A stretch of 34,341 nt of DNA from Gordonibacter sp. An230 (GTDB lineage: Bacteria; Actinomycetota; Coriobacteriia; Coriobacteriales; Eggerthellaceae): contig NZ_NFJP01000035.1 of assembly GCF_002159915.1 (NCBI RefSeq), forward strand, positions 1 through 34,341. The letters are read 5' to 3'. The position numbers and the translations under genes are program-made. Of the stretch, positions 1 to 6,237 are shown piece after piece (within the stretch, counting starts at the first letter, position 1; each line of letters starts with the position of its first letter). Under the pieces are notes generated by a model. The model saw only the letters and a list, made by a program, of their open reading frames with translations, was not told where the DNA came from and made no database searches.

Positions 1-348
<348 letters not shown>

Positions 349-545: not shown

Positions 546-574
546 ATGTTACCCGCCCGCCTCCCCGCTGTCAA
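546..574 (-). promoter_or_regulatory. rrn promoter P2 (proximal)
   Basis: On the minus strand a perfect -35 TTGACA (569-574) is separated by exactly 17 nt from TAACAT (546-551). Upstream is an A/T-rich stretch (about 575-607) that includes the inverted repeat AAGAACTT...AAGTTCTT and could act as an UP element. Transcription would start near 539 and read into 16S. Confidence 0.75.
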
Positions 575-696: not shown

Positions 697-725
697 ATAT
701 TACCCGTAAGGTTTCGGTAACGCAA
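697..725 (-). promoter_or_regulatory. rrn promoter P1 (distal)
   Basis: On the minus strand TTGCGT (720-725) is followed after 17 nt by TAATAT (697-702). An A/T-rich upstream region contains a perfect 14-bp palindrome TTCAAAATTTTGAA (735-748). It lies 151 bp upstream of P2 with the same 17-bp spacer, and both spacers end in GGG directly before the -10. Tandem promoters are usual for bacterial rRNA operons. Confidence 0.7.
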
Positions 726-966: not shown

Positions 967-982
967 TGTTTCATGCGAAACA
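967..982. promoter_or_regulatory. Degenerate parS-like site
   Basis: TGTTTCATGCGAAACA differs from the ParB site TGTTTCACGTGAAACA at two central positions, while both outer half-sites are intact. It lies 191 bp before the first perfect site in the same intergenic region. Confidence 0.5.
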
Positions 983-1157
983 TCTGTGCGCATTGGAAGC
1001 CGAGCGCGAACCGTGCGGACGAGACGGACGCCGGGTCCGCGCTCGCGGTCCGCCCCCGCCCGGATGGGCCGCGAGCGCGAGTCGAAAGCCCGCGGGGGCG
1101 AGGGTGCGGACGGCGCCTCTGCTGCCTGGACGGGCCGCGAGCGCGAGCCGGAAGAGA

Positions 1158-1173
1158 TGTTTCACGTGAAACA
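1158..1173. promoter_or_regulatory. parS centromere site 1
   Basis: TGTTTCACGTGAAACA is a perfect 16-bp palindrome identical to the conserved chromosomal parS bound by ParB/Spo0J. It sits inside the first copy of the 178-bp repeat. ParB loads here, spreads on neighbouring DNA and recruits SMC and ParA for origin segregation (family knowledge). No parA or parB gene lies in this window. Confidence 0.93.
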
Positions 1174-1335
1174 TTTGTACGTGACAGAGGTTCGAGGGCG
1201 GGCCGCGAGAACGAGACGGGCGCCCCCCCCCCGCCCGGATGGGCCTAGCGAACCGCGAGCCGGAAGCCCGCGGGGGCGAGGGTGCGGACGGCGCCTCTGC
1301 TGCCCGGATGGGCCGCGAGCGCGAGTCGGAAGAGA

Positions 1336-1351
1336 TGTTTCACGTGAAACA
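1336..1351. promoter_or_regulatory. parS centromere site 2
   Basis: A second perfect TGTTTCACGTGAAACA lies exactly 178 bp from site 1, within the second copy of the tandem duplication. Its flanks are identical to those of site 1 (GAAGAGA before, TTTGTACGTGACAGAGG after), so it arose by duplication of a parS-bearing segment. Confidence 0.93.
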
Positions 1352-1464
1352 TTTGTACGTGACAGAGGTTCGAGGGCGGGCCGCGAGAACGAGACGGGCG
1401 CCGGGTCCGCCCCCCCCCCGCCCGGATGGGCCTAGCGAACCGCGAGCACGATTGTTTGGGAGGA

Positions 1465-1480
1465 TGTTTCACGTGAAACA
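1465..1480. promoter_or_regulatory. parS centromere site 3
   Basis: A third perfect TGTTTCACGTGAAACA lies 129 bp beyond site 2. Its flanks differ from the duplicated pair (AGGA before, TCTGTACGC after). It resembles the degenerate site at 967 in being followed by TCTGT. Confidence 0.93.
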
Positions 1481-1920: not shown

Positions 1921-2808
1921 TTAATCTTGCCCTTGTCCTTGTCCTTGCCCCTGCCCTTGCCCCTGCCGATGCCCGCCGGCCCCCGCTCCCGGCCCGCGGT
2001 GCTCGCCCCTGTCGTTCGAGCCCATCGGATCGTCCCGTTCCGCACCCTCTTGCGACAGCGCCGCTATCCTGTCGCGCATCTGCCGCATGCTGAGGCTTTT
2101 GCACTCCTCCATCGTCACCGAGGGGTCGAGCTCCATCAGTTCGAGCGCCGCCCGGTAGCGTCCGACCCCCATGCCCTCCGAGGCCGCCGCCTCCCTCGTT
2201 TCGTCGTCCACTTCGCGACACGCGCCCTCGCACGGCAGCTCGCTCAGACAGGCGTCGCTTTGCCGCCGGATGTCGGCGACCTGGCGCTCGTCGCCCGACG
2301 AAACGCTGATCTCCATGAAGGAATCCGCCTGCGCGTAGGGCTCGAACGCGTCGCTTCGCGTGAGCGCGGACAGCGCGTCGGCGTACCCCCGTCCCACGAG
2401 CGGCACGGCATCGAGCAAGGCCCCGCCGTCGTCGTTGAGGGCGCTCGCCTCCACCACGACGCCGAAGCGGTTCACGCCGAGCTCGATCGAGGGATTGACG
2501 TCGATGCCCACGTACGCGGTCGGCTGCGCGTACGCCGTCAGCCCGCCGAGCCCGATGATCGCGACGACAAGGCACGCCGCGAGGGCGACCGCCCTGCGTC
2601 TGATCGACGAGCCGCGGCTCCGCATTCGACCCACCTTGCGGCGCGAGACGACGCGGGCGAACGAAGACGGCGCCGAAGGGGCGGGCGAGCCGGCCCGCTC
2701 GGCCTCCTCGGCAACGCGCGCTATGGAGGCGAGGGTCGCGCGCTTCACGTCTTCGGGAACGACGACGTCGTCGAAGGCCTGCCGCACGCGCTCATCGAAG
2801 TCGTTCAT
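1921..2808 (-). CDS. RsgI-like membrane anti-sigma factor
   Basis: This 295-aa protein probably sequesters the ECF sigma factor encoded just upstream. Residues 1-70 form a charged cytosolic segment, 72-94 a single membrane helix, and about 97-130 carry YVGIDVNPSIELGVN and a following ALNDDG, the hallmark of the middle domain of RsgI-type anti-sigma factors. Residues 213-250 (GRYRA...MEECKSLSMRQM) resemble the conserved helical segment after that domain. The C-terminus is a Gly/Gln run (281-294) encoded by a hexanucleotide repeat. The start is taken at 2808 because its ATG overlaps the sigma-factor stop codon as ATGA, the arrangement expected for translational coupling; a longer frame from 2850 would run deep into the sigma gene. 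Classical RsgI pairs with SigI rather than an ECF factor, so the family label is by domain resemblance. Confidence 0.82.
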   Translation of the reverse strand: MNDFDERVRQAFDDVVVPEDVKRATLASIARVAEEAERAGSPAPSAPSSFARVVSRRKVGRMRSRGSSIRRRAVALAACLVVAIIGLGGLTAYAQPTAYVGIDVNPSIELGVNRFGVVVEASALNDDGGALLDAVPLVGRGYADALSALTRSDAFEPYAQADSFMEISVSSGDERQVADIRRQSDACLSELPCEGACREVDDETREAAASEGMGVGRYRAALELMELDPSVTMEECKSLSMRQMRDRIAALSQEGAERDDPMGSNDRGEHRGPGAGAGGHRQGQGQGQGQGQGQD

Positions 2809-3299
2809 GACAGCGCCTCCTTCAGCTGCTTCTTGCCGCGCGCGATCCACGAATACACCGTGTTGACGGGGGCCTCGACCATCTGCGCGATCTCGGGAGC
2901 GGTGTATCCCTCGTAGAGGGAGAGGTAGAGCGGGGTGCGAGGCGGGTCGTCGAGGCCGCGCATCGCATCGATCACCTCGCTTTCGAAGGAGGCGGGCTGG
3001 ATCGCCGGGTCATCCGACCTCATGTCGGCCGCGCAGGCCGACTCGAGCGGCACCGATCGGCGGCTCGCCGCCTTCAGCATGTCCTTGCATATATTGGTCG
3101 CAACGCGCAGCAGCCACGCTTTGCGGTGCTCCTCGCCGTTGAACCGGACGCGGTCGGACAGCGCGTACCTGAGAAACGCATCCTGGAAGGCGTCCTGCGC
3201 GTCGGCATGGGAGCGGAAGTGCAGCACGCACACGCGCCAGACGGCGTCGCCGTGCCGCTCCATGGCCTCCTCGATATCGCCCCGCTCCCGCATGCCCAT
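2805..3299 (-). CDS. ECF-type RNA polymerase sigma factor
   Basis: A 164-aa sigma-70 family protein of extracytoplasmic-function size. Region 2 spans about residues 15-80 (DAQDAFQDAFLRYAL, then WLLRVATNICKDMLK for -10 recognition). Region 4 spans about 115-163, with the helix-turn-helix YTAPEIAQMVEAPVNTVYSW for -35 recognition. Regions 1 and 3 are absent, as usual for ECF factors. It is the middle gene of a minus-strand operon, 12 nt after the secreted-protein gene and overlapping the anti-sigma gene by 4 nt, so its activity is most likely controlled by that membrane anti-sigma factor. The start could be 3299 or the second ATG at 3293; an AGGA motif lies just upstream of both. It may autoregulate the operon through the promoter-like element at 3887-3917. 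Confidence 0.92.
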   Translation of the reverse strand: MGMRERGDIEEAMERHGDAVWRVCVLHFRSHADAQDAFQDAFLRYALSDRVRFNGEEHRKAWLLRVATNICKDMLKAASRRSVPLESACAADMRSDDPAIQPASFESEVIDAMRGLDDPPRTPLYLSLYEGYTAPEIAQMVEAPVNTVYSWIARGKKQLKEALS

Positions 3300-4578: not shown

Positions 4579-5790
4579 CTACACGAACCTGACGAACTTG
4601 CGCTTGCCCACCTGGAGCGTGGCGCCCGCCAGCATCGCCGGGTCCACGTTGTAGGACTTGGCGGGAACGGGCTCGCCGTTCACCTTCACGCCGCCGCCGT
4701 CTATCAGCCGGCGCGCCTCGCCCGTGCTGGACGCCAACCCGGCATCGGCCAGAAGCTTGGCCAGGTAGACGGTGCCCTCGTCGTTGGGGGCGAGGTCGGC
4801 CGCGAACTCGGGGATGTCGTCGGGCACGGCGTGCTGCTTGAACACGAGGTCGAACTGCTCCTCGGCCGCCTGCGCCGCCGCCTCGTCGTGGTAGGCCGCC
4901 ACGATGTTGCGCGCCAGCGCGCGCTTCACCTTGTTGGGATGCAGCACGCCCTCGGCCAAGCCGCGCTCGATCTCGTCGATCTCGTCGACCGGCAGGGTGG
5001 ATGCCAGGCGGTGGTACTTCACCATGAGCTCGTCGGGGATGGACATGACCTTGCCGAACATGTCGGCCGGCTCGTCGGTGAGCCCGATGTAGTTGCCGTA
5101 GCTCTTGGACATCTTCTGCACGCCGTCGGTGCCCTCGAGGAGCGGCAGCGTCAGGCACACCTGCGGCTCCATGCCCATCTTCTCCATGAGCTCGCGGCCG
5201 GCCAAGAGGTTGAACAGCTGGTCGGTGCCGCCGAGCTCCACGTCGGCCTCGATGACGACCGAGTCGTAGGCCTGCATGAGCGGGTAGAGGAATTCGTGCA
5301 GGCTGATGGGCTGGCTGTTGGCGTAGCGGTTGTGGAAGTCGTCGCGCTCGAGGATGCGGGCCACCGTGAAGTTGCTGGCAAGCTTCAAAAGCCCCTCCAT
5401 GTTAAGGGAGAGCAGCCATTCGGAGTTGTAGCGCAGGGTGGTCTTCTCAGGGTCGAGGATCTTGAACGCTTGGTCGACGTAGGTCTGGGCGTTCGCCTTG
5501 ATCTGCTCGCTCGTGAGCTGCGGGCGCGTGGAGTTGCGCCCCGACGGATCGCCGATGAGCGCGGTGCCGTCGCCGATGATGAGCGTGACGCCGTGGCCGA
5601 GGTCCTGGAACTGGCGCAGCTTGCGCAGCGGCACGGCGTGCCCGAGGTGGATGTCGGGGGCCGTGGGGTCGACGCCCAGCTTGATGTTGAGCGGCGTGCC
5701 GCGCTTGAGCTTCTCGAGCAGGGCGCTCTCGGGCACGATCTGCGCCGCGCCGGAGGCGATGGTGTGCAGTTGTTCTTCCGCGGATAGCAT
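4579..5790 (-). CDS. tyrS: Tyrosyl-tRNA synthetase
   Basis: A 403-aa class I aminoacyl-tRNA synthetase that charges tRNA-Tyr with tyrosine in the cytosol. The HIGH-type motif is HLGH (48-51) in [11 protein letters not shown], the tyrosine pocket includes [13 protein letters not shown] (187-199), and the second signature is KMSKS (226-230). KMSKS rather than KFGKT marks the TyrZ-like bacterial subgroup. A C-terminal S4 RNA-binding domain occupies about 345-403. The start at 5790 follows GAGGATCC; the frame is open for another 97 codons upstream but has no conserved protein there. It stands alone between two long gene-free stretches. No T-box leader was seen upstream. Confidence 0.97.
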
Positions 5791-5822
5791 CGGATCCTCT
5801 TTCTTCGGGTACGTAGCATGCG

Positions 5823-5828
5823 ATTCTA
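5823..5828 (-). promoter_or_regulatory. Possible tyrS -10 element
   Basis: On the minus strand TAGAAT precedes the tyrS start by 32 nt, but no good -35 lies at 16-18 nt. The rest of the 447-bp gap 5791-6237 holds only a short duplicated GGCAGGACGGCGC (6141 and 6163) and no credible gene or T-box. Confidence 0.3.
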
Positions 5829-6237
5829 CCACAGCGCACCGAGAGGGGCGGCGGAATGCGACAGCCCCGCCCGCGCCCGCACCCGCGGCGCACGGGCGAA
5901 AACGGCATCGCGCTTTGAGGGGCGCGGCGGGAAGTCGCGAGAAGGGACGCCGCCCCGGCGGCCAGCGAGCCGCTCCCGGCCTGCCCCGGGGCACGGCATC
6001 GTCCGCCCCCGCATCCAAGCCCGGGGGGCCGCCTCCACCGATCCGCTCCCGCAACGCGGCACCGCCCGCTCCCCGGCGCACATTCGCCGCCGGCCCGGCG
6101 CGCCCTCCGTTGCCATCCAGAAGCGCGCCGCGTTTTGGATGGGCAGGACGGCGCCCCCGCTGGCAGGACGGCGCCGCCGCCCCCGCAGCGAGCGCACCCG
6201 CCCCGCCACGGCTCCGGCGCCCCGGCGGCCCGGCGTG

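Follow-up and report, generated by a model that had tools for sequence, protein, structure and literature searches.

We found that many full parS sites are scattered over the chromosome in part of one bacterial family, the Eggerthellaceae; the motif and the protein are canonical, and the arrangement is not. A cluster of parS palindromes lies upstream of an rRNA operon in the window (the whole 34,341-nt stretch of Gordonibacter sp. An230 DNA analysed here). With a probability of about 0.55, we hold that these palindromes are genuine parS-type ParB sites and that the cluster is a minor local instance of parS dispersal, which is genome-wide and particular to this lineage, with one ParB serving the sites.

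The parS cluster in the window

Scanning the window for the parS palindrome TGTTTCACGTGAAACA with up to three mismatches, we found exactly four matches, all inside 514 bp (Table 1). These three perfect sites and one site with two mismatches match chromosomal parS beyond chance: 0.05 were expected, and four sites occurred in 0 of 100 shuffles. The original prediction, made from the letters of the window, had described three perfect palindromes and one with two changes within this distance, and the mismatch scan recovered their exact coordinates. It had also placed the cluster about 240 bp from the distal rrn promoter, and we measured 242 bp from site 967 to this promoter, which was read by eye. 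Its identification of the palindrome as parS holds as well, with the canonical sequence present and ParA and ParB encoded by the same genome.

Table 1. Features of the window, and parS centres of extended palindromes in other stretches of the same genome
Feature	Positions	Strand	Basis and remarks
16S rRNA gene, 5' part	1..348	minus	Rfam RF00177, 288.6 bits
Proximal rrn promoter	546..574	minus	TTGACA, 17 nt, TAACAT; consensus scan; sequence context conserved in G005
Distal rrn promoter	697..725	minus	-35 TTGCGT 725-720, -10 TAATAT 702-697; read by eye, unreported by consensus scan
parS with two changes (positions 8 and 10)	967-982	none	TGTTTCATGCGAAACA; mismatch scan
TCTGTGCG, 3' of site 967	983-990		resembles the tail, falls outside the strict tail pattern
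Tandem repeat, 178 bp, 2.2 copies	1053..1447	none	doubled one parS element
Perfect parS	1158-1173	none	tail TTTGTACG at 1174-1181
Perfect parS, duplicate of 1158	1336-1351	none	tail TTTGTACG at 1352-1359
Perfect parS	1465-1480	none	tail TCTGTACG at 1481-1488
RsgI-like anti-sigma factor gene	1921..2808	minus	Pfam PF23750, E 8.7e-20 (on 1921-2850); start called with our own gene finder
ECF-type sigma factor gene, synteny marker	2805..3299	minus	Pfam Sigma70 regions 2 and 4; syntenic in L175, L199
Tyrosyl-tRNA synthetase gene, synteny marker	4579..5832	minus	Pfam tRNA-synt_1b (on 4579-6081); identity 91% L175, 93% L199
parS centres of extended palindromes	L025:7372, 9495, 11764, 13805; L027:3531; L030:4001; L043:4574

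All four sites lie within the 1.57-kb gap between the 5' end of the 16S gene (position 348, minus strand) and the RsgI-like gene. The window holds only the first 348 bases of 16S, and its start is also the start of contig C29. The three perfect sites span 323 bp; those at 1158 and 1336 are not independent, because they lie within two copies of the 178-bp tandem duplication (149-nt copies, 97% identical, at 178-bp spacing). This local duplication raised the parS count in the window. G-rich 8-bp repeats adjoin the cluster at 1512-1568, and a hexamer repeat lies in the 3' end of the RsgI-like gene at 1926-1974.

parS number and placement, and the cognate ParB

Searching the genome that contains the window (G000; 3.88 Mb in 73 contigs), we found 63 perfect parS and 95 sites with at most two mismatches. 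In comparison, the reversed pattern gave 0 matches as a control, and the chance expectation for a perfect 16-mer is about 0.0001 per 1.8 Mb. Seventeen perfect sites lie on contig C1 at 16.8-45.6 kb, around parB (the strongest ParB match, C1:29950-30477) and dnaA (C1:37431-38933), with the ParA-ParB operon beside them. Hence, the origin cluster is on C1, a contig other than that of the window. The original prediction had taken clustering near dnaA as support and many copies genome-wide as evidence against it; the many copies were found, and the clustering around dnaA exists, but elsewhere. The ParB of G000 is 91% identical to that of Rubneribacter badeniensis, and from kinship we infer that G000 belongs with Rubneribacter; two genomes in its genus have 122 and 104 perfect sites, the numbers obtained for R. 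badeniensis and Ca. R. avistercoris below.

At least 20 perfect parS were present in 28 of 138 Eggerthellaceae genomes and at least 100 in 10 of these, with a maximum of 148; genomes with at least 20 sites occur in 11 of the 48 genera of the family (tallied from the table of counts). In a sample of 396 genomes from the phylum, the maximum among the approximately 383 outside the family was 21 and the next value 13. Among the 29 named genomes searched (from 68 named ParB loci), perfect sites numbered 126 in Enterorhabdus sp. P55, 122 in R. badeniensis, 109 in Eggerthella sinensis, 107 in Adlercreutzia faecimuris, 104 in Ca. R. avistercoris, 78 in Gordonibacter pamelaeae, 48 in Enteroscipio rubneri, 42 in Eggerthellaceae ABMPRH_69_3, 26 in Gordonibacter sp. 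28C, 25 in Gordonibacter sp. Marseille-P2775, 21 in Raoultibacter timonensis, 14 in Senegalimassilia anaerobia, 9 and 11 in Paraeggerthella hongkongensis and 1 to 8 in the remaining 15. A further genome from the genus of E. sinensis (G125, 3.6 Mb) has 130 sites. Among the matches listed from the open-licence PMC literature, we found no description of Eggerthellaceae parS.

These genomes share with the chromosomal ParABS systems of B. subtilis, Caulobacter, Corynebacterium and Streptomyces the same 16-bp consensus, parAB beside dnaA with a site cluster, and the parS-specificity residues of ParB. They differ in having 63 to 148 perfect sites, whereas most bacteria have few, near the replication origin, and the published range is one to 20 (excerpt of PMC10197239). 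The other Actinomycetota sampled likewise have far fewer. The tailed second class described below is another difference from the known ParABS systems. In Pseudomonas aeruginosa, ParB also engages hundreds of sites outside the parS cluster; those targets are 7-bp half sites with narrow peaks, whereas here they are full 16-bp palindromes (excerpt of PMC7022226).

Perfect sites were intergenic in 45 of 47 cases in G000, 57 of 65 in the single-contig genome G005 and 41 of 46 in G. pamelaeae 7-10-1-b (G060), where the called coding fractions of the same stretches are 74, 87 and 82% (home-made gene finder). Placement is not strictly intergenic, since a few sites overlap or abut gene starts or sit inside called genes (2/47, 8/65 and 5/46, respectively; e.g. 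L026:16701 to L032:16334, L172:6534). In the fetched stretches, 180 of 208 sites were perfect, 18 had one mismatch and 10 had two, shares that are biased because the stretches were mostly chosen round known sites, so these counts are not genome-wide rates; 15 of the 38 changes were C to T next to the palindrome centre.

Seven of 47 perfect sites in G000 centre perfect palindromes with 6-11 extra pairs (0.7% expected from flank swapping), and these may be hairpins that act as terminators or form cruciforms, parS being at the tip. As a general account, we rejected terminators: 40 of the 47 are not centres of long palindromes, and convergent neighbours are only mildly in excess.

G005 has 108 sites on one contig, of which 66 positions, all below 2.26 Mb, were listed. 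Among the listed sites, left-arm density per 100 kb fell from 8 in the first bin (38-100 kb from parB) to 2 in the middle of the arm and stood at 3.9 in the last bin. Of those on the left arm, 36 of 56 lie more than 400 kb from parB; most sites in G005 thus fall outside the origin domain, which also sets this genome apart from the known ParABS systems. Ten of the 66 are no more than 100 kb away from the point opposite parB, near the sign change of the GC skew. A possible terminus gap in G. pamelaeae (76 of 78 places listed) was set aside: with repeated GC-skew flips and abundant Ns, the order of the record is unreliable. This record (NC_021021.1, L268-L287), titled complete, has many Ns, GC-skew flips and no 16S match.

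ParB of G000 matches solved ParB structures (6t1f, E 1.3e-53), the alignment covering the N-terminal and helix-turn-helix domains. Residues R173 and G201 set specificity for parS versus NBS, the Noc type having Q173 and R201 (excerpt of PMC7383237). By this assignment, as far as the excerpt gives it, the genome encodes a cognate ParB with parS-type recognition residues, and R173 and G201 are kept in 29 of 29 ParB read, from high- and low-count genomes both. Hence, the change lies in the DNA. Each of 20 genomes has one strong ParB match (181-199 bits), and G005, with its 108 sites, has no ParB match beyond this one. A second ParB as the reader of the scattered sites was rejected: weaker ParB-like matches are found in genomes with many and with few sites alike, and G005 has none. 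On the ParB tree, at least five changes are required to explain the high-count label (12 of 29 rows; bootstrap 4-5; shuffled mean 9.5); since the starred branches force only one change, a single gain with losses would also fit.

Two site classes and readings of the dispersed sites

The parS sites form two classes: tail-less origin sites and scattered sites with a one-sided YYGTWCG-like tail (four genera). We defined the tail, reading outward from the palindrome, as YG and then, from the third base on, TWCK or close variants; this pattern was composed after viewing the flanks of G000, G005 and G060. Among sites with at most one mismatch in stretches of these three genomes, with the origin class set by locus, the tail was present at 0 of 47 origin sites and at 86 of the 127 scattered ones, in 78 cases on a single flank and in 8 on both flanks (three genera), and the shifted-position control gave a mean of 1.25 per 254 flanks. 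Similarly, none of 163 perfect sites had it across 22 of the 68 named origin (ParB) loci, a set that overlaps partly with the 47 (the G. pamelaeae origin is in both). In later checks, we found the tail at 14 of 17 sites in E. sinensis and 3 of 21 in genus g17 (G018, 2 of 8; G097, 1 of 13); given the value in g17, the tail is not family-wide. The perfect sites of the window belong to the scattered class, because they carry the tails TTTGTACG, TTTGTACG and TCTGTACG. The one-sided tail suggests either an additional factor for the scattered class or that this class arose separately.

In the reading that we prefer, a dispersed set of parS served by one ParB, the single strong chromosomal ParB would load at the dense tail-less cluster around parAB and dnaA, leading to ParA-driven segregation. 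The same ParB would also load along both arms at tens of sites, single or paired and mostly intergenic, and may there form small local complexes for SMC loading, DNA folding or ParB titration, without a second ParB or a Noc protein. The sequences themselves give the sites and their numbers, the two classes, the preference for intergenic DNA, the conserved recognition residues of ParB and the lack of parS at orthologous rrn loci; that ParB occupies the scattered sites and loads SMC there, and that this class or its tail has a function, is what we infer.

A broader reading, which we regard as possible but hold tentatively, is that of a 'polycentric' chromosome in several genera of the Eggerthellaceae. 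Here, one ParB on 50-150 full parS, terminus included, would drive segregation, SMC loading and folding along the whole DNA, and the tail would mark arm sites for different treatment. Models of segregation and SMC loading rest on few origin parS, and ectopic parS are generally held to disturb them. Since one family contains both natural genomes with at least 100 full parS and relatives with 2-5, any effect of dispersed centromeres on chromosome folding can be compared directly; high-count Eggerthella and Gordonibacter are culturable gut bacteria.

The tail could belong to a protein other than ParB. Using looser patterns for the consensus and the pair spacings, we obtained the oriented consensus RA-TGTTTCACGTGAAACA-TYYGTWCG (rows picked by the looser pattern), with base preferences over 8 positions on one side of the palindrome, and recurrent pairs, 12 of them spaced at 34-35 bp and 7 at 46-48 bp. 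The tail is mildly co-directed with transcription (both neighbours along it in 32 cases, both against in 15); relative to replication in G005, 25 tails point with and 20 against, and an orientation by replication was rejected. The one-sided preferences, the fixed spacings and the co-direction with transcription would suit operators of a different DNA-binding protein, with a site that contains the parS palindrome and ParB binding incidental. We consider this unlikely, since the core equals parS at all 16 positions, genus g17 has the core largely without the tail, and the genes neighbouring the sites are varied.

REP and BIME elements with RAYT genes are short palindromes between genes that carry a flanking tag and occur alone or as inverted pairs, and the scattered sites resemble them. 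The scattered sites might accordingly be a REP- or MITE-like element that captured parS and spread, with no function in the cell. Several observations agree with such spread and tell against dispersed parS as a functional set: 32 of the 95 sites in G000 carry one or two mismatches, as a decaying repeat would also give, and listed sites in G005 cluster beyond chance (30% of gaps below 5 kb versus 12% expected). Counts within a genus are patchy (25-79 sites in g59), pairs with shared linkers recur in different genera, and local duplication has multiplied sites both in the window and in G097, where four perfect parS form a tandem array with 76-bp spacing (L305:485-728). Two Gordonibacter genomes have few orthologous sites in common: nine regions that align between them contain 11 sites, of which 2 were shared perfect, 1 was present as a 2-mismatch variant and 8 were absent. 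Hence, most single sites are not conserved, and the persistence of the core as a type, despite gain and loss of individual sites, fits a functional set with turnover and a spreading element alike.

Against a mobile repeat, we found no clean insertion footprint in the nine comparisons between the two Gordonibacter genomes. In a scan of 15 of 24 Y1 loci, including all 10 of the long type, 0 of these 10 Y1/RAYT-type loci had a site with at most four mismatches within about 1.5 kb, and E. sinensis, with its 109 sites, has no Y1 match. Mobilisation by RAYT was therefore rejected; the RAYT-type genes here, unlike those of REP/BIME systems, have other flanking repeats. Long Y1-type (RAYT-like) genes at L210:1387-2281, L213:1405-2262 and L215:1058-2006 are flanked by palindromic repeats of their own, in inverted copies that bear no relation to parS. 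In addition, a free ParB target in more than 100 copies should burden the cell unless it is tolerated. A spreading element without function thus seems improbable to us.

Noc with its NBS sites in Bacillus likewise combines a ParB-family protein with many chromosome-wide sites (excerpt of PMC7383237). This likeness, together with the lack of a second strong Noc-like ParB in the genomes searched, would favour a second role for ParB in Noc-like nucleoid occlusion, exerted at the scattered sites. However, the motif here is parS and not NBS, and the main ParB lacks the Noc-type residues, as far as the excerpt defines them; no second ParB with Q173 and R201 was found among the proteins read (one match in G005; R and G in 29 of 29 main ParB). 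NBS are described in that excerpt as absent near the terminus, whereas 10 of the 66 listed sites in G005 are near the point opposite parB, so the terminus-free pattern of Noc is not seen in this genome. We regard a Noc-like role as very unlikely.

One viral contig with a tailed parS (L247:7168-7191), the sole one found, carries in addition genes for a terminase, a DNA primase and a ParB-like protein; it is possibly a phage of Eggerthellaceae using or mimicking host parS.

The orthologous rrn locus and the replication origin

The original prediction had also made the cluster a main ParB-loading site in an origin-proximal window, with a possible link between ParB and rRNA transcription. We found the gene order PBP, U32 peptidase, tyrosyl-tRNA synthetase, sigma factor, RsgI, 16S conserved in G005 (L175); the shorter stretch from Gordonibacter sp. 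Marseille-P2775 (G061, L199) holds part of U32 and the remaining genes in the same order. In G005, where the arm measures about 1.69 Mb, 675 kb separate the orthologous 16S from parB; in G061, with an arm of about 1.97 Mb, the distance is about 930 kb. In both genomes, this locus is outside the origin domain, taken as 20% of the chromosome round oriC (excerpt of PMC7022226). Judged by the synteny of tyrS, sigma factor, RsgI and 16S, origin proximity of the window is unlikely, the window contig itself being unplaced.

We found no parS with at most three mismatches upstream of the rRNA operons of G005 (L165, L175), the operon of G061 (L199) and the other-type operon of Ca. R. avistercoris (L186). 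These four stretches from three other genomes give no conservation of a parS-rrn link, which we rejected. The 16S contig of R. badeniensis has 203 bp upstream only, and an orthologue of the rrn flank of the window was not found in other Rubneribacter. On these sequence comparisons, origin proximity and conserved coupling to rRNA transcription both lose support.

We give almost no credence to an origin-proximal main loading site, possibly coupling segregation to rRNA transcription: the perfect sites are compact and the nearest site is close to the promoter, and the unplaced contig could in principle lie near the origin, whereas the origin cluster of 17 perfect sites sits on another contig, the orthologous rrn loci are distant from parB and without parS, and the perfect sites of the window bear the tail of the scattered class. 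parS clusters alone are an unsafe origin marker in the Eggerthellaceae.

In alignment with G005, the parS-bearing part of the window does not align, and identity is 80% from the 16S start to about base 712, with the promoters covered. The distance between RsgI and 16S is about 0.63 kb in G005 versus 1.57 kb in the window.
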